Source of the DNA: Solirubrobacterales bacterium 70-9
GTDB taxonomy: Bacteria; Pseudomonadota; Alphaproteobacteria; Acetobacterales; Acetobacteraceae
Assembly: GCA_903970625.1 (NCBI GenBank)
Contig: CAJCJG010000018.1
Coordinates: 1 to 64,000 of the forward strand
DNA length: 64,000 bases
Reading direction: 5' to 3'
Under the pieces are notes generated by a model that searched no databases, was not told the origin of the DNA, and saw nothing but the letters and a program-made list of their open reading frames with translations. Within the stretch, counting starts at the first letter, position 1; each line of letters starts with the position of its first letter. Positions 35,748-47,504 of this stretch are shown piece after piece. The translations under genes and the position numbers were made by a program.

Positions 35748-35756
35748 GCAGGCGGT

Positions 35757-35784
35757 AGCCTATCGCGTGGCGCGGGATGGGCAA
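35757..35784 (-). promoter_or_regulatory. candidate promoter of the DUF445 gene, leaderless geometry
   Basis: On the minus strand, TTGCCC (35784-35779) is separated by 16 nt from TAGGCT (35762-35757), which ends 9 nt before the ATG at 35747. The -35 hexamer is the same as in the candidates at 150-155 and 44649-44654. Confidence 0.35.
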
Positions 35785-35824
35785 GGGGGCGGCGCCTGTC
35801 CCAACCTGTGGTTTGATTCTACCT

Positions 35825-35930
35825 CGTCGTCATGCCCGCGGAGGCGGGCATCCACGCGCACAAAGCCGCGTTGTCGGGGGCCGTGGGCAGCGCTTTGCGC
35901 GCGCGTGGACCCCTGCCTTCGCGCTACGGG
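35825..35930. repeat. palindromic intergenic repeat, GTCAT-CCCGCG type
   Basis: An 8-bp perfect hairpin (ATGCCCGC 35832-35839 with GCGGGCAT 35844-35851) is followed by a second long-armed stem. That stem pairs TCCACGCGC from 35851 with GCGCGTGGA near 35904-35912, and CAAAGC with GCTTTG inside it. The layout resembles the element at 48829-48925 and the common alphaproteobacterial TCATNCCCGCG repeats. No protein is encoded. Confidence 0.6.
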
Positions 35931-35975
35931 ATTCACACATCCGGACGTCGCTTGTTTGGCGCTTGGCCTGGGCAT

Positions 35976-36020
35976 TCGCCCCCTCTCCGCCCCAACGTGG
36001 CGGAGAGGAAGCAGAAGGGG
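35976..36020. repeat. second copy of the CCCTCTCCGCCCC hairpin core
   Basis: Arms CCTCTCCGCC (35982-35991) and GGCGGAGAGG (35999-36008) form a 10-bp stem around CCAACGT. The core differs by only one or two bases from the hairpin at 2798-2826, proving a dispersed family within this window. Only the core, not the 14-bp outer repeats, is seen here. It lies 78 bp from the end of the polyol operon. Confidence 0.6.
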
Positions 36021-36097
36021 CATCGACGCTAAGACAACGGGTGAATCCCGTAGGCCTTCGCGGGGTGACCGATAGTGGTTGGAACACCATCAATTCT

Positions 36098-37573
36098 TCA
36101 AACTTCCTCGATTGCGCGGAGCGTCGCCAGCGCTCCCCGTTCGTGCAGCGAGGCCAGGGCCGCGACGTAGGGTTGAGTGAAGCGCGGTTCGTCGATCAGG
36201 TCGCCGAAGACCGCCCGGTTCTCCAGGAAAGCCAAGGGATTCGCGCGATTGCGGGCGGCGGCTTCCATCAGCGTGCGTTTCAGCGGATCGACGACCTCGA
36301 TCGGCTGCCCGGCTTCGTCTGTGCCCTCGGCGTAGCGCGCCCAGCTTGCCACGATGGCGGCGGACAGGCGCACCGGACCGCCGGCGGCCAGACTTTCGCG
36401 CACGACGGGGAGCAGGAACTTAGGGATGCGGTCCGAGGTTTCTGCGCAGAGGCGGGCGAGCGTGTCGCGCACTTCCGGGTTGCCGAAACGCTCCATCAGC
36501 GTCCGGCAATAGGCGTCCAGATCGACGCCGGGCAGGGGGCGCAGCGTGGGCCGCGCCTCCTCGTTCATGTACGCCAGCAGAAAGCGGGGGAACAGCGGAT
36601 CGGCCATCGCCTCGTGCGCGAAGCGGTAGCCGGCGAGAACGCCGAAATAGCCGAGCCCCTGATGCCCTGCGTTCAGCAGCCGCAGCTTCATCAGCTCGTA
36701 CGGCACTACGTCGGCCACCATCTGCACGCCGACATGTTCGAGCGGCGGGCGACCCTGGGGGAAATGGTCCTCGACCACCCATTGCGTGAACGGCTCGCAG
36801 ACGACCGGCCACGCGTCGGCGATGCCGAACCGCTCGGCGAGTTGCGCCTTGTCGGACTCGCTCGTCACCGGCGTGATCCGGTCCACCATGGCGTTGGGGA
36901 AGGCGACGTGTTCGGCAATCCAGTCGCCGAGGTCGGCATCCTTGCGGTGCGCGAAGGCGGCGAACGAGCGGCGTGCCATGTCGCCGTTGCTTTGTACGTT
37001 GTCGCACGACATGACGGTGAACGGCGGGATGCCCCGCGCGCGCCGCCGCCGCAGCGCCTCGACGACGACGCCGAACACGCTGACCGGGACCGCGCCCGGT
37101 TCGAGGTCGTGGACAACACCGGGATGGGCGAAATCGAAAGCGCCGGTGACGTGGTGGAAGTTGTAGCCGCCTTCGGTGACGGTCAGGGAGACGATGCGCG
37201 TGGCGGGGGCGGCCATGATTTCGAGAACCGCCTCCGGATCGTCGGGCAGGAACCGGTAGTCGATCATCGAACCGACGACTCGCGCGGTATGCTCACCGCT
37301 CGGGTGCTTGACGACCAGCGTGTACAGGCCGTCCTGCGCATGCAGCGCGTCCCGCATCCTGGCATCGCCGGGCAGCAGGCCGACGCCGCAAATGCCCCAC
37401 TCCATCGCCTCGCCGCGATTCATCAGGTCGTCGAGATAGACGGCCTGGTGCGCACGATGAAAGCTGCCGACGCCGATATGGACGATACCGACCGTGACCC
37501 GGCTGCGGTCGTACCCTGGCCGGCCGATGTTCGCCGGCAAGCGAGGGAGGTCGTCGTTTTTCAGTCGTTGCAT
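36098..37573 (-). CDS. mtlK: mannitol dehydrogenase family protein (polyol 2-dehydrogenase)
   Basis: A 491-residue long-chain polyol dehydrogenase of the MtlK/fructuronate reductase family, oxidising mannitol or a similar polyol to the ketose with NAD. The N-terminal VGIVHIGVGSFHRAHQAVY is the nucleotide-binding region, and the catalytic KLRLLNAGHQGLGYFG segment carries the conserved lysine, asparagine and histidine. It is the last gene of the polyol operon, 43 bp after the SDR, as in the Rhodobacter smo/mtl operon. Confidence 0.88.
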   Translation of the reverse strand: MQRLKNDDLPRLPANIGRPGYDRSRVTVGIVHIGVGSFHRAHQAVYLDDLMNRGEAMEWGICGVGLLPGDARMRDALHAQDGLYTLVVKHPSGEHTARVVGSMIDYRFLPDDPEAVLEIMAAPATRIVSLTVTEGGYNFHHVTGAFDFAHPGVVHDLEPGAVPVSVFGVVVEALRRRRARGIPPFTVMSCDNVQSNGDMARRSFAAFAHRKDADLGDWIAEHVAFPNAMVDRITPVTSESDKAQLAERFGIADAWPVVCEPFTQWVVEDHFPQGRPPLEHVGVQMVADVVPYELMKLRLLNAGHQGLGYFGVLAGYRFAHEAMADPLFPRFLLAYMNEEARPTLRPLPGVDLDAYCRTLMERFGNPEVRDTLARLCAETSDRIPKFLLPVVRESLAAGGPVRLSAAIVASWARYAEGTDEAGQPIEVVDPLKRTLMEAAARNRANPLAFLENRAVFGDLIDEPRFTQPYVAALASLHERGALATLRAIEEV

Positions 37574-37616
37574 GAAAGGTTGCCTCGTCGTTGGTTCCAG
37601 CCGGCAGGTTGTGACT

Positions 37617-38390
37617 CTACCAAATCGTATAGCCGGCGTCTGCCTGCACCACCGCCCCAGTCATCACGCTGGAAGCAGCAGAGGCGAGAAACAGGATCAC
37701 GGCGGCGATCTCGTCCGGGCGGCCGACGCGGTGCATCGGGGTGCTGTCCATCCAGACCGGGAACATCGCCGGGTTGGTGAAACCGGGGCTCGACATCGGC
37801 GTGTCGATGTAGGTGGGGGCGATGGAATTGACCCGCACGCCGCGCGCCGCCCACTCGCCCGCGAGCGACCGCGTCATGTGATGTACCGCAGCCTTGGAGG
37901 CGTTGTAATGCACCTGTCGCTGCGGCTTGTTGGAGATCAGACCCGACATCGAGCCGATGGTGACGATGGACCCGCGACCACGCGCCAGCATGTGGCGGCC
38001 GAATTCGCGGCAGCACCAGAACACGCCATTGAGGTTGATGTCGATCACGCGCAGCCAATCGGCGTCCGGCATGTCTTCGCCCGGCGTGTCCGGCAGCGCG
38101 ATGCCGGCGTTGGCGATCAGGATGTCCACGCCGTTCCCTTGGGCGTTCAGGTCGTCGGCGGCGCGGCGCACGTCGTCCGGCTTGGTCACATCGAGAAAGA
38201 GTGTGTCCGCCTCGTAGCCCTTCGCTGCCAGCGCGGCGCGACCCGCGGCTAGATTGTCGGCGTTGTAGTCGCAAAGCACGATCTTGGCGCCATACTCGGC
38301 GAGCGCCTCGGCCCCGGCAAGGCCAATGCCTCGGGCGCCGCCGGTGACGACGGCAGTGGAGCCTGCAAGTTCGAATTTTTCACGATACAT
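37617..38390 (-). CDS. SDR-family polyol dehydrogenase (sorbitol dehydrogenase SmoS-like)
   Basis: A 257-residue short-chain dehydrogenase with TGGARGIG at 16-23, NAG at 94-96, and catalytic Y162/K166 with S147 or S149 upstream (GSMSG). The ATG at 38390 is preceded by GGAGA; the open frame beyond it is a shadow. Between the permeases and the mannitol-type dehydrogenase, it occupies the position of SmoS in the Rhodobacter sorbitol operon. Sorbitol, xylitol or arabinitol are all possible substrates. Confidence 0.85.
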   Translation of the reverse strand: MYREKFELAGSTAVVTGGARGIGLAGAEALAEYGAKIVLCDYNADNLAAGRAALAAKGYEADTLFLDVTKPDDVRRAADDLNAQGNGVDILIANAGIALPDTPGEDMPDADWLRVIDINLNGVFWCCREFGRHMLARGRGSIVTIGSMSGLISNKPQRQVHYNASKAAVHHMTRSLAGEWAARGVRVNSIAPTYIDTPMSSPGFTNPAMFPVWMDSTPMHRVGRPDEIAAVILFLASAASSVMTGAVVQADAGYTIW

Positions 38391-38410
38391 CTTCGTCTCC
38401 TTCAAAAATG

Positions 38411-39232
38411 CTACTTGACCGCCCCGAAGGTCAGTCCGCGCACAAGCTGACGCTGGGTACACCAGCCGAGCACCAGCATCGGTGCCACGGCCGCGACCGA
38501 CGCGGCCGACAATTTTGCCCAGAAAAATCCTTCGGGATTGGAGAACGAGGCGATTGCCAGCGCCAGCGTGGCGGCGTTGACCTCGGTGACGTTGATGCAC
38601 CAGAAGGACTCGTTCCATGACATGATGATCGACAGCAACGCCGTCGAGGCAACGCCCGGCAGGGCCAGCGGCAGGACCAGACGGACGATCTGCTGCAACG
38701 CGCCGGCGCCGTCCACGCGCGCCGCCTCCAGGATTTCGCGCGGCACTTCCTTGAAGAACGAGTAGAGCATCCAAACGACGATGGGCAGGTTGCCGAACAG
38801 GGTGATGACGATAAGCCCCGTGCGCGTGTCCAGCAAATGCGCATCGCGCAGCAGCAGGTAGATCGGCACCAGAACGCCGACCGCCGGCATGAATTTGGTG
38901 GACAGCATCCACAGCAGGATGCCCTGGGTGCGCCGGCCCGGATAGAACGCCATCACGTACGCCGCCGGAATGGCGAGCAAGAGGGCCAATGCAGTCGCGC
39001 CGAAGGCGACGGCGACGCTGTTCCAGAAATGCGCGATATAGTCGATGCGCTCCTGCATCTCCGCGAAGTTTTCCAGCGTCGGCGTGAAGAACAGCAGCGG
39101 CGGCGAGGCAACGGCGTCGATCTCGGTCTTGAAGGCAGCGAGCGTCATCCAGAAGATCGGGAACGCCATCACCAGCGCGGCGAACCAGCCGATGGCGGTG
39201 AATTGCAGCTTGGTACGCAGGCGCTGCCGCAT
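38411..39232 (-). CDS. smoG: polyol/sugar ABC transporter permease (SmoG/MalG type)
   Basis: A 273-residue permease of the CUT1 family with six hydrophobic segments and the coupling loop REILEAARVDGAGALQQI. ATG 39232 is chosen because AGGGG lies 8 nt upstream. It pairs with the permease encoded 10 bp upstream. The operon supplies no ATPase for it. Confidence 0.88.
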   Translation of the reverse strand: MRQRLRTKLQFTAIGWFAALVMAFPIFWMTLAAFKTEIDAVASPPLLFFTPTLENFAEMQERIDYIAHFWNSVAVAFGATALALLLAIPAAYVMAFYPGRRTQGILLWMLSTKFMPAVGVLVPIYLLLRDAHLLDTRTGLIVITLFGNLPIVVWMLYSFFKEVPREILEAARVDGAGALQQIVRLVLPLALPGVASTALLSIIMSWNESFWCINVTEVNAATLALAIASFSNPEGFFWAKLSAASVAAVAPMLVLGWCTQRQLVRGLTFGAVK

Positions 39233-39242
39233 TGTCGCGCCC

Positions 39243-40160
39243 CTACATTTGCCGCGCGACGGTGCGCACGAACAGAAACGTGATGACGTTGGCAAGCACG
39301 ATGGCGAGCACGCCGGCCGCCGAGGCGCCGCCGACATCGAAGGCGAGCAGCGCGCGCGAATAGATCAGGAACGATAGATTGGTCGTCGCCAGACCCGGAC
39401 CGCCGACCGTGGTAACGACGATCTCCGCATAGACGACGAGGAAGAAAATCGTCTCCAGCATCACCACGACCGCAATCGGCCGCGCCAGATGCGGCAGGAT
39501 AACGAAGCGGAACACCGCGAGCGGACTGGCGCCGTCCAGATGCGCCGCATCCACCTGCTCGCGGTCGACCGATTGGAGCGAGGTCAGCAGGATCAGCGTG
39601 GCGAACGGCGTCCACTCCCAGCCCACGATGGCGATGACGGACGCCAGCGGGTAGTCGCCGAACCAGTCGATGGCTTCGAAGCCAAGCGAGTTGGCGATCC
39701 AGGCGAACAGGCCGTACACCGGGTGCATCAGCAGGTTCTTCCAGACCAGCGCGCTGACCGTGGGCATGACGAAGAACGGCGCGATGGCCAGCAGCCGGGC
39801 GATGCCACGGCCGAAGAATGGCTGGTCGAAGACGATGGCGAGCAGGATGCCGACGCCGATGGTGACGGCGAGGTCGCCCACGACGATGATCACGGTGTTG
39901 AGGAGTGCGGTCGCCAGCGAGGGATCGGTGAACAGATAGACGTAGTTGTCGAAGCCCGCGAAACCGCGCCCGGCAGGATCCTGAAGGTTGTAACGCTGCA
40001 CCGAAAACCACAGCGTCAGGATCAGCGGCACGATCATCCAGGCGAACAGCGCCGCCACCGCCGGCGCCATCAGCCAGGTGGTGCCGCGCCGAAAAAAGCC
40101 GGGATGGCCGCGGCCGCGGCGGCGTGCCACGGCGGGGGCATACAGAGTCGTCGTGCTCAT
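39243..40160 (-). CDS. smoF: polyol/sugar ABC transporter permease (SmoF/MalF type)
   Basis: A 305-residue CUT1 permease. The coupling loop reads DREQVDAAHLDGASPLAVF, and the N-terminus has the typical TWLMAPAVAALFAWM helix. It is 91 bp after the binding-protein gene, a gap with two strong stem-loops, and 10 bp before smoG. Confidence 0.88.
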   Translation of the reverse strand: MSTTTLYAPAVARRRGRGHPGFFRRGTTWLMAPAVAALFAWMIVPLILTLWFSVQRYNLQDPAGRGFAGFDNYVYLFTDPSLATALLNTVIIVVGDLAVTIGVGILLAIVFDQPFFGRGIARLLAIAPFFVMPTVSALVWKNLLMHPVYGLFAWIANSLGFEAIDWFGDYPLASVIAIVGWEWTPFATLILLTSLQSVDREQVDAAHLDGASPLAVFRFVILPHLARPIAVVVMLETIFFLVVYAEIVVTTVGGPGLATTNLSFLIYSRALLAFDVGGASAAGVLAIVLANVITFLFVRTVARQM

Positions 40161-40178
40161 GCCACGCGGGGTCCTTTT

Positions 40179-40193
40179 GATCCGCAGCGGATC
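40179..40193. repeat. perfect 7-bp inverted repeat in the smoE-smoF gap
   Basis: GATCCGC and GCGGATC pair around a single A. The site is 19 bp upstream of the smoF start. It could be a small hairpin in the mRNA or an operator. Confidence 0.45.
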
Positions 40194-40202
40194 GGGGCGC
40201 GA

Positions 40203-40234
40203 GGCCGGCCACGGCGCGCGCGCCGCAGCCGGCC
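40203..40234. repeat. strong nested stem-loop after the binding-protein gene
   Basis: GGCCGGC...GCCGGCC encloses CGGCGC-GC-GCGCCG, giving 13 pairs with one 2x2 internal mismatch. It lies 18 bp after the binding-protein stop. There is no T-tract, so an mRNA-stabilising 3' stem is more likely than a terminator; such stems explain high binding-protein levels in sugar ABC operons. Confidence 0.5.
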
Positions 40235-40251
40235 GCCTCCGTGTGGCGCGA

Positions 40252-41568
40252 CTACTTGATGTAACCGGCCTGCTTCAGCACCCGGTTGGCGTTGTCCGCC
40301 GCGCTGTCGAGCGCCTGATCGACCGATTCCTTGCCGGTCAGGGCGGCGGCGATCTGCTGGCCGGCAAAGTTGCCGATGGCCTGCATCTCCGGAATCGTCG
40401 CGAACGTGATCCCCGTGTACGGCTTGGGGTCTTTCGTGCCATGCACCACGTCGGCCGATTCGATCAGGCCGAGAGTGATCTTGGCGAACGGCGCGGCCTT
40501 CTGGTACTCCGGATTGGCGTAGGTGGACGCGCGGGTGCCCGGGGGTGCCGTGACCCAGCCGTCGGTCTTGCCGACCATGTCGATGTAGTCCTTCGAAGTC
40601 GCCCACTCGATGAACTTCTTCGCCTCGGCCGTGTGGGTGCTGGAAGTCGGCACCGCAAGCGCCCAGGCCCAGAGCCAGCCGTTGCCCTTGTTCCAGCTTT
40701 CGATGGGTGCGTTGGCGAAGCCGACCTTGTCCGCCACCTGCGACCGCTTCGGATCGTAGAGGATGCCGGCGGCGACCGTCGCGTCCACCCACATGCCGCA
40801 ATGGCCACTCGACATCAGCGCAAGATTCTCGTTGAAGCCGTTGCCGGCGGCACCAGGCGGGCCATCCTTGTGCATCAGGTCGACATAGAAGGCGATGGCC
40901 TTCTTCCAGGCCGGGCTATTATAGCCGGAATGCCAATCGGCATCGAACAATTGGCCGCCGAACGTGTTCCCGAGCAGGCCCGCGATCCCCATGTTTTCGC
41001 CCCAGCCGGGCTGGCCGCGCAGGCAAATGCCGTAGATCTGCTTGGATTTGTTGGTGATCTTCGAGGCTAAGGTTGCCACGTCGTCCCAGGTCGGGTGCTC
41101 CGGCATCGTCAGGCCGGCAGCTTTGAACAGGTCGGTGCGGTAGAACATCATCGTGCTCTCCGCATAGAACGGCAGCGAATACAGCTTGCCGTCGTAGGAC
41201 AGGCCGTTGCGCACCGATTCGAGGACGTCGTTGAGGTCGTAGCTTGCGGGCGTGTCCTGGAGCGGCACCAGCCATCCGTTCTTGCCCCAGATCGGCGTTT
41301 CGTACATGCCGATGGTAATGATGTCGAACTGGCCGCCCTTGGTGGAAATGTCGGTGGTCACGCGCTGGCGCAGCACGTTTTCCTCCAGCACCAGCCATTT
41401 CAGTTTGATGCCGGACTGCTCCTCGAACTTCTTCGAGTATTTCTGCATCACGATCATGTCGGGGTTGTTGACGGTGGCGATCGTCAACGTCGTCTGGGCC
41501 TGCGCCGCAGCGCCCCATCCGAGTGCCGCCGCCAGGACGGCCGACAGCAGCCATTTTTTCTTGTTCAC
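40252..41568 (-). CDS. smoE: polyol/sugar ABC transporter substrate-binding protein (SmoE type)
   Basis: A 438-residue type 1 extracellular solute-binding protein with an ordinary signal peptide (KKKWLLSAVLAAALGWGAAAQAQ). GTG 41568 is chosen because GAGGAGG lies 5 nt upstream and the signal peptide follows at once. Sequence features such as LPFYAESTMMFYRTDLF and GWGENMG fit binding proteins of the sorbitol/mannitol group. It heads the polyol operon. Confidence 0.88.
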   Translation of the reverse strand: MNKKKWLLSAVLAAALGWGAAAQAQTTLTIATVNNPDMIVMQKYSKKFEEQSGIKLKWLVLEENVLRQRVTTDISTKGGQFDIITIGMYETPIWGKNGWLVPLQDTPASYDLNDVLESVRNGLSYDGKLYSLPFYAESTMMFYRTDLFKAAGLTMPEHPTWDDVATLASKITNKSKQIYGICLRGQPGWGENMGIAGLLGNTFGGQLFDADWHSGYNSPAWKKAIAFYVDLMHKDGPPGAAGNGFNENLALMSSGHCGMWVDATVAAGILYDPKRSQVADKVGFANAPIESWNKGNGWLWAWALAVPTSSTHTAEAKKFIEWATSKDYIDMVGKTDGWVTAPPGTRASTYANPEYQKAAPFAKITLGLIESADVVHGTKDPKPYTGITFATIPEMQAIGNFAGQQIAAALTGKESVDQALDSAADNANRVLKQAGYIK

Positions 41569-41592
41569 GGTTTCCTCCTCGTTTTTTAAGTC

Positions 41593-41622
41593 GCCGGCGC
41601 GGATGCTGCCATCGGCGCCGGC
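41593..41622. terminator. stem-loop between the NCS2 permease gene and smoE
   Basis: GCCGGCGC (41593-41600) and GCGCCGGC (41615-41622) pair perfectly over a 14-nt loop. Read on the minus strand it is followed by an A-rich, not T-rich, stretch. It may separate expression of the permease gene from the polyol operon; its type is unclear. Confidence 0.35.
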
Positions 41623-41637
41623 GCACAGCAAGCTTTG

Positions 41638-43026
41638 CTAGACGTGCTCGGCCGCCGCTGCCGTCGCCGCCGCCTCGTGCCGTGCCGCCTCGGCGCTGCC
41701 CACCCCGTTGAAGAACACGTTCAGGATCACCGACACGACGGCGGACAGCAGGATGCCGGATTCCAGCAGCGGTTGCAGCTCGTGCGGCATGTTGTGGAAG
41801 AACGCGGGCGCCACCAGCGGGATCATGCCGAAGCCTACCGAGACCGCGACGATGAACAGGTTGTTGGCGTTGGCCTTGAAATTCACCCCGGTCAGGATGC
41901 GCGCGCCGGTGGCCGCGACCATGCCGAACATCACCAGCCCTGCGCCGCCGAGGACCACCTGCGGCACCGCCTCCACCAACGCCGCCATCTTCGGCAGCAC
42001 GCCCAGCACCAGCATCACCACGCCGCCCGTGACCGTGATGTAGCGGGAGCGTACGCCGGTGACGCCGACCAGCCCGACGTTCTGCGAGAACGAGGTGTAG
42101 GGAAACGTGTTGAAGATGCCGCCCAGGATCGTGCCGACCCCATCGGCGCGCAGCCCCCGCGTCAGGTCCGCCTGCGCAATCGGTTTGCCGGTGATCTCGC
42201 CGAGTGCCAGGAACATGCCAAGCGATTCGATCATCACCACGACCATGACGATGCACATGGTAATAATCGGGATCGGGTAGAACTGCGGGACGCCGAAGTG
42301 GAACGGCACCACCACGGCGAACCATTCGGCCGTGCCCACCTTCTCGAAATGCATCAGGCCGAGCGCCGCCGCGACCGCCGCGCCGACGACGATGCCGAGC
42401 AACACGGCGACGTTGGCAACGAAGCCCTCGCCCCATTTGATCAGCGCCAGGATCACGATCAGAACGAACAGCGCGATGGCCAGCCCGGTCAGTTGCCCGA
42501 ACGCCGGGTTCGGCACGGCGGCCGGCGTGCCGTCGATAACCTTGGTGAATGTTTGCAAGCCACCGCCTGCCCAATTGATGCCCACCCGCATCAGCGACAC
42601 GCCGATCACCAGAATGATCGTGCCGGTCACGACCGGCGGGAACAGCGGCAGCAGCCTGCTGACGAAGGGTGCGGCGATCACGCCGAAGAAGCCGGCCGCG
42701 ATCACCGAGCCGTAGATGCCGAGCAACCCGATCTCCGGCGAGGCGGCCATCGACAGCATCGGGCCGACGGAGGCGAAGGTGACGCCCATCATCACCGGCA
42801 TCCGAATGCCGACGCCAGGAAAACCGAGGCTCTGCACGATGGTCGCCAGCCCGCAGGCGAACAGATCGGCGCTGATCAGGAACGCCACCTGTTCTGGCGG
42901 CAGATTCACTGCCCGCCCGATGATCAGCGGCACCGCGACGGCACCGGCATACATGACCAGCACATGCTGAATCGCCAGAGGCAGCAGCCGCGCGATGGGA
43001 AGACGTTCGTCGACGGGATGAACCAA
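41638..43026 (-). CDS. NCS2-family nucleobase:cation symporter (xanthine/urate permease-like)
   Basis: A 462-residue inner-membrane permease of the nucleobase cation symporter-2 family with about 14 hydrophobic helices. Visible hallmarks are QSLGFPGVGIRMPVMMGVTF in the first half and IESLGMFLALGEITGK in the second. It is closest in character to xanthine/urate permeases. The start is a TTG at 43026 supported by GGAGGA 8 nt upstream. It lies 69 bp before the polyol operon on the same strand, an odd functional neighbour. Confidence 0.85.
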   Translation of the reverse strand: MVHPVDERLPIARLLPLAIQHVLVMYAGAVAVPLIIGRAVNLPPEQVAFLISADLFACGLATIVQSLGFPGVGIRMPVMMGVTFASVGPMLSMAASPEIGLLGIYGSVIAAGFFGVIAAPFVSRLLPLFPPVVTGTIILVIGVSLMRVGINWAGGGLQTFTKVIDGTPAAVPNPAFGQLTGLAIALFVLIVILALIKWGEGFVANVAVLLGIVVGAAVAAALGLMHFEKVGTAEWFAVVVPFHFGVPQFYPIPIITMCIVMVVVMIESLGMFLALGEITGKPIAQADLTRGLRADGVGTILGGIFNTFPYTSFSQNVGLVGVTGVRSRYITVTGGVVMLVLGVLPKMAALVEAVPQVVLGGAGLVMFGMVAATGARILTGVNFKANANNLFIVAVSVGFGMIPLVAPAFFHNMPHELQPLLESGILLSAVVSVILNVFFNGVGSAEAARHEAAATAAAAEHV

Positions 43027-43048
43027 GGCGCCGATCCTCCTGCCATGC

Positions 43049-43064
43049 GGCGCCTGGAGGCGCC
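43049..43064. repeat. small hairpin in the leader of the NCS2 permease gene
   Basis: GGCGCC-TGGA-GGCGCC forms a 6-bp stem with a 4-nt loop 23 bp upstream of the TTG start. Nothing resembling a purine riboswitch core was seen around it. Confidence 0.3.
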
Positions 43065-43098
43065 CGTGTCACGCAGGAGTCGCAAATTTCGGACCAGC

Positions 43099-43139
43099 AC
43101 TTATCGCTAAGTTGCGCGTACCGGCCGGTGCGTACCGGC
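43099..43139. promoter_or_regulatory. candidate operator region upstream of the NCS2 permease
   Basis: The palindrome ACTTA-TCGC-TAAGT (43099-43112) is next to two direct copies of GCGTACCGGC (43116-43125 and 43130-43139). Symmetric and repeated half-sites in a 120-bp intergenic region suggest regulator binding. No adjacent regulator gene is present. Confidence 0.35.
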
Positions 43140-43146
43140 AACGTAC

Positions 43147-43590
43147 CTACAGCGTGCCGGCCTTTCGGGCGGCCTCGTACTCCGGGATCGAGTGGGCAAT
43201 GACCATGTTCTGGTTGCTGTCGATCACATGGCCATGGGTACTGCAAAGAACGTGATTCTTTGGCCCTTTCAACTTGCCATGCACGATCACGCAGTCCGGC
43301 ACCGTCGCGTGCGGCAGCTTGACCTGCATCCAGTCGATGCGCTCCTGCTCCTTGCCGAGCACATCGAGCGATGCCAGCGCCATCGCGTCCGCCTTCGCGA
43401 CCACCTGCTCGGGGCTGTTATCGGCGGAGGCGACCCCCTGGATCGATTCGTAAAAATAGTCCTCGTAGCGTTCCTGAAAAACGGCGATATCCGCGCCTGC
43501 GTCGGTCGCGGTCTGCTGGCCCTTCGCCAGAAATGCGGCCCGGGCGGCTTTCAGTCGCGGGACAGTTGTCCGCAGCGCCTCCTCGGCCAC
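43147..43590 (-). CDS. C-terminal part of an unknown protein, cut off by an in-frame TAG
   Basis: This 147-codon open frame lies in exactly the same frame as the gene just upstream, separated from it by TAG and four sense codons (TTT TCG CGC GCG). It could be started only from a GTG with no ribosome site. The sequence is helical at first (LKAARAAFLAKGQQ) and ends with a compact His/Cys-containing part (DCVIVHGKLKGPKNHVLC; STHGHVIDSNQ). I do not recognise a family. It is best read as the continuation of the upstream gene after a nonsense change, a readthrough stop or a sequencing error. Confidence 0.55.
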   Translation of the reverse strand: MAEEALRTTVPRLKAARAAFLAKGQQTATDAGADIAVFQERYEDYFYESIQGVASADNSPEQVVAKADAMALASLDVLGKEQERIDWMQVKLPHATVPDCVIVHGKLKGPKNHVLCSTHGHVIDSNQNMVIAHSIPEYEAARKAGTL

Positions 43591-43602
43591 CGCGCGCGAA
43601 AA

Positions 43603-44373
43603 CTATGCGATCTGCTGCGGCGTCAGGGAGGAGCGGCCGGAAGCCCCTTGCAGGGCAGCCTCGTAGGCCTTCGACGTCGGCCCCATGTCCATCTTCGCTT
43701 GCTGCTTTTGATCGTCCGGCAGCGGGTCGTTGGGGTCGTTCGCCGCGGAATAGGCAATAACGACCTTGTTGCTGATTTCGAGCGTCCCGATCACACCCGG
43801 CCCGGCGACGGCCTGGGCCGTGACCGTTGCCTTGTCGCCCGCGACCATGGAGACCTGGATGATAGATGTGAATTTGCCATCGTTCCCGACGACGGTGTTG
43901 TAGGAACCCAGGCCGCCCGCCGTCGAACCGCTGGTCGGCGCGGTCTCGATCATAATCGTCTCGTTGGGGATGAAGCCGCTGCCGGCGATGGCAAAGAAAT
44001 TGTTGCCCTTGTCCGTGACGGCGATCACCGGCGGCGTCGAGGGGCGGGCCGGTGGCGCAGCGACGGGTGCCGAGGTGGTGGTTGTCGTGCCCGCCGTGGC
44101 CAGCGCGGTGGTGGTGATCGCCTCTTGGGGTTTTGCGCTCGCATCGACCCATTTCAACTCGGTGTCGTCGGTGTCGTTTGCGGCCTGCCCACCGCTTGGC
44201 TGCGCGTTCGTGTCGTCGGCCTGATCGACCGCATCGTTCGCGTCCGATGAATCGGGTGCGGCGCCGGCGGCTGCCCCCGCATCCGCCGCACCTTGGCCTT
44301 GCCGTGTGTCGCGGCCGGTGAAACGCGTCGTCCAGTCGTGGATATCGTCGCTCAGAGCGTCGAGGATACCCAT
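43603..44373 (-). CDS. unknown acidic protein, N-terminal part ending at an in-frame TAG
   Basis: A 256-residue product starts MGILDALSDDIHDW at ATG 44373 (GGGGA upstream). Residues 20-75 are low-complexity and rich in Asp, Ala and Gly. Residues 90-110 are rich in Thr, Pro and Ala, and residues 115-205 look like a beta-rich domain (VIAVTDKGNNFFAIAGSGF; GDKATVTAQAVAGPG). It ends SSLTPQQIA just before TAG, and the frame then continues for about 150 codons. There is no signal peptide. No known family recognised. Confidence 0.6.
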   Translation of the reverse strand: MGILDALSDDIHDWTTRFTGRDTRQGQGAADAGAAAGAAPDSSDANDAVDQADDTNAQPSGGQAANDTDDTELKWVDASAKPQEAITTTALATAGTTTTTSAPVAAPPARPSTPPVIAVTDKGNNFFAIAGSGFIPNETIMIETAPTSGSTAGGLGSYNTVVGNDGKFTSIIQVSMVAGDKATVTAQAVAGPGVIGTLEISNKVVIAYSAANDPNDPLPDDQKQQAKMDMGPTSKAYEAALQGASGRSSLTPQQIA

Positions 44374-44402
44374 TCCCGTTCCCCGGTCAGTTCCGACAAG
44401 GT

Positions 44403-44432
44403 AATTCAATCGCCGCCACGCTACGCCGTCAA
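44403..44432 (-). promoter_or_regulatory. candidate promoter of the TAG-interrupted gene
   Basis: On the minus strand, TTGACG (44432-44427) and TGAATT (44408-44403) are 18 nt apart, ending 29 nt before the ATG at 44373. The leader would contain the GGGGA ribosome site. An intact promoter argues against long-standing decay. Confidence 0.35.
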
Positions 44433-44648
44433 TCAACTCGAAACGAGAAACAACTTTGGTGTTCCGGCGGTCGCCAACGTAACCCCCACTGGGATTTCCG
44501 CCGGTCTCAGACCCGCATCGGCGAAACAAACGGGGCCAGGATGCCGCAAATGTACGCCGGTTCTGCCCAACAGTCGCGCACCCCCCCCGGCTCAGTTCCA
44601 AATTAAAGGCAAACCGTCAATGATTTCGCATCAGCGTACCGGGACCGC

Positions 44649-44677
44649 TTGCCCTCCGGCGCAGAGACTGATCAAAT
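44649..44677 (+). promoter_or_regulatory. candidate promoter of the PEP-carboxylase-like gene, leaderless geometry
   Basis: TTGCCC (44649-44654) and TCAAAT (44672-44677) are separated by exactly 17 nt, and the -10-like box ends 7 nt before the ATG at 44685. No Shine-Dalgarno sequence is present, so the start codon probably coincides with the 5' end of the mRNA. The rest of the gap back to 44432 shows no gene. Confidence 0.45.
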
Positions 44678-44684
44678 CTCGCAC

Positions 44685-47504
44685 ATGCAGCATTCCGTCT
44701 CGGACCTCGCCAGCATCCCGGCCCTCGCGGCAGACCTGCTCGCGCTGACGGCGCGTGCGCGGGAGGGGGCGGAGGCCGATCCGTTCGGCAACCCGGTGCT
44801 GTCGGTGGCACTCGCCGTGTCCCGCCGGATCGACCAGGGCACGCTGCCGTTCGACGATATCGAGGCGTTGGTCCGGCATCTGCGTGATGCGGCGTTTGCC
44901 GACCGGGCGGTGCGGATTGCCGCTTATGTGGGCGGGGTGGACATCACCGCCAACCGCGCCGCCATGTCGTCGCTGGCCGAACGGCTGGTCCGCCCGGACC
45001 CGGCGGACAGTGCGGTGCCGCTGGCCACCTTCCGCAACGCGGTCGAGCGGGCGCGGTTTGCCGCCGTTTTCACCGCGCACCCGACGTTTTCGCTGCCGGT
45101 GAACATCAACCATGTGCTCGCCGAAGCCGCCAGCGGCCGGCCCACGGAGGAGACGTTCGCCTCCCACCGCTCCATGGGCATGAAGCTGGAGGAGGAGTTC
45201 GAGCAGGCCACATTCGCCATCGTGCAGGGCCGCAACGCTCTGGATCTGTTGAACGAAGCGATTCTGATTGCTGCCCGCACCAACTGGCCCGGGCGCTGGA
45301 CGGAGATCGTGCCCTCGCCGATCATCCTGACAAGCTGGGTCGGCTACGACACCGACGGCCGCACCGACATCGGCTGGTGGGATACGCTGCGCCTGCGGCT
45401 GCGGATGAAGCGGATGCAGCTTCTGCGCGTGCAGGCGCAGGTGGAGGCGGTGCCCGAGGGCGCCCCGATCGCCGCCCGCGTCGCGACCGCGTTGGAGGCG
45501 CTGGACGCGCAACTGGCCACCGCCCCCAGCAGCCAGGACCCCGATGCCGTTGCCGCTTTCGCACAGGCCCTGATCGGCCAGCGGGATGCCGCGATGATCA
45601 CGCCGGAGCCGCTGGACGCGCTGTTCCGTACCGCGATCGCCGCCGCCCCGCTGCCCGCCAAGCTCGCACTATCTGTGGCCCGAGCCGGGTTGCGTTCCCA
45701 CGGCCTGTCGCTCGCCCACACCCATGTCCGCCTGAATGCCGCTCAATTGCACAACGTCGTCCGCCAGCGCGTGGGCCTCGCCGACCCGCCCGAGGATCAG
45801 TCCCGTCGGCGCGTGCTGCTCCATGGCATCAACGCGGCGCTCGATAGCGTGGTGCCGATTCCGGTCGATTTCGGCGCCCTGATCGCCGAGGGCGCCTCCG
45901 CCGCGCGGCTAATGATGACGGTCGCGCAACTGGTGAAACACATCGACGCGGCGACGCCGGTGCGGTTCCTGATCGCGGAGACCGAAAGCGGCTACACGCT
46001 ATTGGCCGCGCTGTGGCTTGCCAAGCTGTTCGGCATCGAAAAACACATCGAAATCAGCCCGCTGTTCGAGACGGCGGAGGCACTGGAACTCGGCATCCAT
46101 GTGCTGGAGGAGGCGCTGCGCAGCCCGCACTACCGCGCCTATCTGCAACAGACGGGGCGGATGGCGCTGCAATTCGGCTACTCGGATTCCGGTCGTTATG
46201 TCGGGCCGCTGGCCGCCACCTACCTGATCGAACGGCTGCGGCTGAAACTCGGCGAGGCGCTGGCGCGCCACAAACTGACCGGCGTGGAGGTGATCTTCTT
46301 CGACACCCACGGCGAGAGCGTTGGCCGTGGCGCCCATCCCGGGTCGCTGGCCGAGCGCCTCGCCTATCTGTCGCCTCCGGCGGCACGGCAGGCGCTGTCC
46401 AAGGCCGGGATCGCGGTGCGGGAGGAGAGCGCGTTTCAGGGCGGCGACGGCTATCTGCTGTTCGGCACCCCGGAACTGGCGACCGCAACCGTCGCCCGCA
46501 TCGCGGAGCACGCATTTCCGCCCGAGTTGCGCTTCGGCCAGCCGCCGCCGCCAGTCGATCCGATCTACGAGGAAACCGACTTTTCCGCCGATTTTTTCGC
46601 GACGTGCCGCGCGGGGATGCAGGAACTGGTGGACGACGCGGGCTACGCCGCGCTGCTCGGCGCCTTCGGCCCCGCGCTGCTGGACAAATCCGGCTCCCGC
46701 CCGGCCGCGCGGCAGACCGACGGCATGGCGGGGCCGGCGATGATCCGCCATCCGCGCGAACTGCGGGCGATCCCGAACAACGCCATCCTGCACCAGCTCG
46801 GCTGGCTCGCGAACACGTTGCAGGGGCTGGGAGCGGCCGCCAACCGCCATTCCGAACTTTTTGGCGAGTTGCGGGAGCGCAGCGGCCGGTTCCGCAACGC
46901 GATGGCACTGGTGCATCATGCCATGGCGCACTCCGATCTCGACGTGCTGCGCGCGGTGGTGGCGACACTCGACCCGGGCATGTGGCTGGACCGCGCCGCC
47001 CACGCTCGCCGGCCGGGGCGGCGGACCGCGCTGGTCGCGGTCGCGCGGGCGTTGGAGCGGCTGGATCTGTGGGCGCAGGCGCAGGCGATGTTCCGCCGCA
47101 TCCAGGCCGACCATGTGGCGCTCCGCGCGCTGTGGCCGGACGCACCGATGATGTCGGACCGCGAAATGCTGCTGCACTCGATGCGGTTGGCGCTGATCCA
47201 TCGCATCTGGCTGATCTCGACCGAAGTGCCGGATTTTTCGCCGCGCCACGGCATCACCCGCTCGAACCTGGACGGCCGGATTCTGCGGCTTGACGTGCCA
47301 TCGTCGGTCGCATTCCTGACCGAAGTGTTTCCGGCGGCACCGGATGCCTCCGCCGATCGCGACTTCGCCGAACCCCGCGCACCGCGCGCCGAGGCCGCCT
47401 ATTCGCGCGAGCATGCGGAGATTTTTTCGCCGATGGCGCGGCTGTTCGGGCTGGTGCGGGAGATCAGCACGGCGGTCACACACGAGGTCGGCGCATTCGG
47501 CTGA
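44685..47504 (+). CDS. phosphoenolpyruvate carboxylase family protein with altered active-site motifs
   Basis: A 939-residue protein with the overall length and motif order of PEP carboxylase, which makes oxaloacetate from PEP and bicarbonate. FTAHPT with H132 is kept. However, the DRDGNP motif reads DTDGRT, and GYSDSNKDAG reads GYSDSGRYVG. The loop HGRGGxxGRGG is shortened to H542-GESVGRGAH, losing the first arginine. The usual C-terminal NTG is replaced by AFG. These residues are known to be catalytic in canonical enzymes, so activity is doubtful. A protease and an exporter gene follow closely. Confidence 0.75.
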   Translation: MQHSVSDLASIPALAADLLALTARAREGAEADPFGNPVLSVALAVSRRIDQGTLPFDDIEALVRHLRDAAFADRAVRIAAYVGGVDITANRAAMSSLAERLVRPDPADSAVPLATFRNAVERARFAAVFTAHPTFSLPVNINHVLAEAASGRPTEETFASHRSMGMKLEEEFEQATFAIVQGRNALDLLNEAILIAARTNWPGRWTEIVPSPIILTSWVGYDTDGRTDIGWWDTLRLRLRMKRMQLLRVQAQVEAVPEGAPIAARVATALEALDAQLATAPSSQDPDAVAAFAQALIGQRDAAMITPEPLDALFRTAIAAAPLPAKLALSVARAGLRSHGLSLAHTHVRLNAAQLHNVVRQRVGLADPPEDQSRRRVLLHGINAALDSVVPIPVDFGALIAEGASAARLMMTVAQLVKHIDAATPVRFLIAETESGYTLLAALWLAKLFGIEKHIEISPLFETAEALELGIHVLEEALRSPHYRAYLQQTGRMALQFGYSDSGRYVGPLAATYLIERLRLKLGEALARHKLTGVEVIFFDTHGESVGRGAHPGSLAERLAYLSPPAARQALSKAGIAVREESAFQGGDGYLLFGTPELATATVARIAEHAFPPELRFGQPPPPVDPIYEETDFSADFFATCRAGMQELVDDAGYAALLGAFGPALLDKSGSRPAARQTDGMAGPAMIRHPRELRAIPNNAILHQLGWLANTLQGLGAAANRHSELFGELRERSGRFRNAMALVHHAMAHSDLDVLRAVVATLDPGMWLDRAAHARRPGRRTALVAVARALERLDLWAQAQAMFRRIQADHVALRALWPDAPMMSDREMLLHSMRLALIHRIWLISTEVPDFSPRHGITRSNLDGRILRLDVPSSVAFLTEVFPAAPDASADRDFAEPRAPRAEAAYSREHAEIFSPMARLFGLVREISTAVTHEVGAFG

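Follow-up and report, generated by a model that had tools for sequence, protein, structure and literature searches.

A single in-frame TAG in an orphan frame of an Acetobacteraceae genome: most likely an ordinary broken gene or a draft artefact, with a rare Cys/His mini-domain downstream

A reading frame divided by one stop codon can be a broken gene, a pair of adjacent genes, a site of stop-codon readthrough or an error of assembly, and which of these best describes the minus-strand frame at 43147–44373 in the genome of Solirubrobacterales bacterium 70-9 is the question raised by this locus. Within the 64,000-nucleotide stretch of DNA that we analyzed (the window), this is one frame of 409 codons whose sole interruption is a TAG at 43603–43605; translated from 44373 to 43147, it yields 408 codons (the sense codons plus the replaced stop) and a terminal stop at 43147. 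The internal TAG is codon 257, and the next four codons are sense and lead to a GTG (43588–43590, minus strand), such that translation confirms the claim of the initial annotation that two listed frames are one and the same, with the TAG alone between them. The upstream part (43606–44373, minus strand) extends for 256 codons from an ATG at 44373, and the downstream part (43150–43602, minus strand) continues in the same frame for 151 codons, with a helical stretch followed by a C-terminal mini-domain of ∼50 residues (43159–43311, minus strand).

To score coding potential, we used a six-frame codon-usage model trained on the genes of the window, most of which have family matches. Relative to the best wrong frame, the score is +11.5 for the 43 codons that lead up to the TAG and +8.5 for the 43 that follow it; control windows within real genes (n = 178) lie above 0 in 97% of cases (median 11.9), and not one of 503 stop-free false-frame windows reaches +8. 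Coding in one and the same frame thus runs to the TAG and continues after it, bearing out what had been proposed for the locus. There is no frameshift either. The C-to-T change in a CAG codon that had been proposed is a candidate origin of the TAG, as the sequence does not fix the original codon. The coding score and a low-confidence structure model together describe the upstream part, which is predicted to contain an N-terminal helix, an acidic, Ala-rich linker, a beta-rich middle and the beginning of a helical region. A model of the full 408-residue chain (pLDDT 41) is usable only as a hint of secondary structure; modeled as if read through, the chain has a low-confidence predicted helix (residues 252–287) that crosses the position of the stop.

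The layout by itself is not rare. A codon-model scan of every stop in the 64 kb recovered coding–stop–coding in one frame at six other stops (22515, 28100, 34470, 41638, 55828, and 59690), all of which look like ordinary neighboring gene pairs in which the second start lies 9–69 nt past the stop and has Shine–Dalgarno pairing of −4.2 to −11.8 kcal/mol. What is distinctive at 43603 is the absence of a downstream ribosome site and not the layout. Indeed, the GTG at 43590, 12 nt past the TAG, is the only candidate start within the first 66 downstream codons, and it has no Shine–Dalgarno pairing (0 kcal/mol), in line with the earlier statement that the downstream part lacks a ribosome site of its own. 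The companion statement, that the promoter and ribosome site of the upstream part are intact, survives only in part: the ATG is preceded by a moderate ribosome site (GGGGA, −5.7 kcal/mol), but no sigma-70-like promoter site was found for it.

These observations bear directly on the possibility that the locus comprises two translationally coupled genes, in which the upstream protein would end at the TAG and a second protein of ∼147 residues would start at the GTG by reinitiation (or, in a variant, a shorter product of ∼60 residues could start from an ATG at 43329). Same-frame neighbors 9–69 nt apart are common in the window (n = six), and 12 nt from stop to start is a typical distance for coupled genes; however, the GTG pairs at 0 kcal/mol where the six real pairs reach −4.2 to −11.8, and the coding signal extends right to the TAG from both sides. 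Reinitiation might nevertheless take place without such pairing. Further evidence on both sides of this reading comes from a search for relatives.

Models from Pfam, NCBIfam and PHROG match neither half of the frame, and for the body of the protein (residues 1–350) no convincing relative emerged from 397 other genomes of the family, from genome and viral contig collections, or from plasmids and phages. Weak matches of the body in 25 other family genomes are at the level of chance for a sample of ∼400 genomes, and an origin from a phage or plasmid was rejected, since the phage, plasmid and viral searches returned no match (hits in Paraburkholderia have E values of 0.9). The collections searched likewise contain no relative of residues 262–355, immediately ahead of the mini-domain, an absence that speaks against a coupled second gene, and no relative in the genomes, viral contigs, plasmids or phages carries both halves in one chain, nor does any of the other genomes searched share the layout with a stop at the same place. 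The description of the protein as unrecognised thus stands for the body, an orphan without a Pfam, NCBIfam or PHROG match, but not for the last ∼50 residues, for which relatives exist. With an orphan body there is no intact relative for comparison, and the locus is a candidate nonsense pseudogene.

The relatives of the last ∼50 residues define a Cys/His mini-domain (pattern DC-x-IV-x-GK-xx-GP-x-NHVLC-x-TH-x-H-x-LD...IIA) that occurs in 4 of the 397 other family genomes sampled, at ∼50% identity. Six copies share two invariant Cys, two His, two Asp, one Pro, and one Ala; the copy in the window retains all eight of these columns while being ∼50% identical to its nearest relatives, which indicates that the downstream mini-domain is little decayed. 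Three of the carriers have it close to the N-terminus of a protein that has a start of its own (L003, 283–1749; L005, 126–1652; and L004, 88–1863, which has two copies), and in the fourth (L006, 1465–1692) it makes up nearly all of a protein of ∼59–76 residues. The search for homologues that join both halves in one chain accordingly returned relatives of the mini-domain only, near their own N-terminus or alone. The initial annotation had held that downstream homologues standing alone with their own start would count against a single chain; such homologues were found for the last ∼50 residues only (alone in L006, N-terminal in L003–L005). Because the mini-domain stands alone elsewhere, two coupled genes are kept as a possible, if rather unlikely, account of the locus.

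The carrier proteins L003, L004, and L005 are ∼489–592 residues long; L003 and L005 have a long C-terminal region in common (44.7% identity) and L004 differs. Glycine-rich hydrophobic stretches occur in the partner parts of L003 and L005. An N-terminal helix common to the upstream part and to the mini-domain relatives, sought with a three-sequence profile, did not score above decoys. A structure model of the mini-domain built from the six sequences has a pLDDT of 88 and matches no known fold at E below 0.3, and the Cys/His pattern suggests a putative metal site. Judged from these sequences, the mini-domain appears to be an undescribed, rare module whose partners change. Type VI secretion sheath (VipB/TssC) genes are present in all three of the four carrier genomes that were tested (G021, G206, and G144), which may be no more than their background rate; they lie on contigs other than those of the mini-domain, and none were seen in the genome of the window (G000).

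The genomic setting is that of accessory DNA. A segment of ∼9 kb (35748–44650), flanked by DUF445 and ppc-like genes, holds genes for a mannitol dehydrogenase, an SDR protein, a sugar ABC transporter, and a xanthine permease together with the interrupted gene, and its G + C content is 0.62–0.68 compared with 0.68–0.71 in the flanks. The other genome of the genus that was examined (87% complete) is without the interrupted gene; there, the DUF445 gene (85% identical protein) has the ppc-like gene as its immediate neighbor and the segment is absent, placing the interrupted gene on an accessory segment. The flanking ppc-like gene (44685–47501) encodes a divergent phosphoenolpyruvate carboxylase-like protein that scores 72.7 bits against the standard model, for which the curated cut-off is 815 bits.

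Taken together, we hypothesize, with middling confidence, that this is a lineage-specific orphan gene broken by a nonsense change, a young pseudogene whose function has been lost. The ancestral gene would have encoded one protein of ∼408 residues, probably a single chain with an N-terminal helix, a linker, a beta-rich domain, a helical part, and the Cys/His domain; the TAG at codon 257 would stem from a nonsense change, presumably real and recent. Translation would now most likely end at this codon, giving a 256-residue product that lacks the Cys/His domain and most of the helical part, and that has probably lost its function. One chain and one nonsense change account for the continuous coding, the absent downstream ribosome site and the well-kept mini-domain, as long as the change happened recently or is a mistake in the sequence. 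In favor of a broken chain we count coding on both sides, the eight retained columns, the GTG lacking Shine–Dalgarno pairing, the low-confidence helix predicted across the stop, and the absence of both the gene and its segment from the other genome of the genus; against it we count that no relative has both halves, that the mini-domain is elsewhere N-terminal or alone, and that the draft allows for a consensus error. This last point leads to the explanation that the actual gene is intact and the TAG comes from an erroneous base, or from a mixture of strains, in the assembly, which we regard as unlikely. One base would suffice and the 409 codons show no other defect; the genome is a fragmented draft in 378 contigs (93.6% completeness), which makes a consensus error possible. 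Nothing counts directly against this explanation, although the other window genes examined carry no interruption. On balance, the gene is most probably a broken orphan gene of an ordinary kind, or else a draft artefact.

The remaining explanation is readthrough of the TAG, either programmed or simply tolerated, by which some molecules would gain the helical part and the Cys/His mini-domain; we consider it very improbable. The downstream part is still coding-like and keeps its invariant residues, as readthrough would lead one to expect, but TAG is a routine stop here, which rules out its recoding to sense: the codon model places it at the end of ∼18 of 50 genes, and EF-G and pbuX also stop with it. 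A suppressor tRNA is ruled out among the 43 tRNAs found in the 93.6% complete genome, none of which has the UAG-reading CTA anticodon; the initial annotation had suggested a look for such an amber suppressor. No RNA readthrough element was found either: the fold of the RNA around the TAG is no more stable than those of shuffled sequences (z +1.2), and there is no match to an Rfam family. The base after the TAG is a T, which raises termination efficiency in Escherichia coli reporters (PMC11126739), and none of the other genomes searched shares the layout. Of the three origins put forward in the initial annotation (a recent event, a sequencing error or programmed readthrough), a single chain broken recently or by error is therefore best supported and readthrough is unlikely. 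It is scarcely more probable that low-level readthrough or reinitiation yields two products, with and without the Cys/His domain, in a family in which the mini-domain would recombine with varied partners. A broken orphan gene is by itself of little importance, and the mini-domain is the sole part worth pursuing; if it is a real domain, it would add modestly to annotation and would mark out a group of modular proteins.

Among known systems, genes with programmed stop-codon readthrough resemble this locus in that coding goes on in frame past the stop; they differ from it in that here the layout is unconserved, no suppressor tRNA was found, the next base is unfavorable, and there is no RNA element. 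"Pseudo-pseudogenes" (Feng et al. 2022, as presented in a review, PMC11078800) offer a likeness in an interrupted frame that possibly gives a low level of product, whereas the present case is known from sequence alone. Bacterial pseudogenes made by a single nonsense codon differ in that here no intact relative is at hand to prove the ancestral chain; the likeness lies in one in-frame stop, an otherwise intact frame and an accessory gene.
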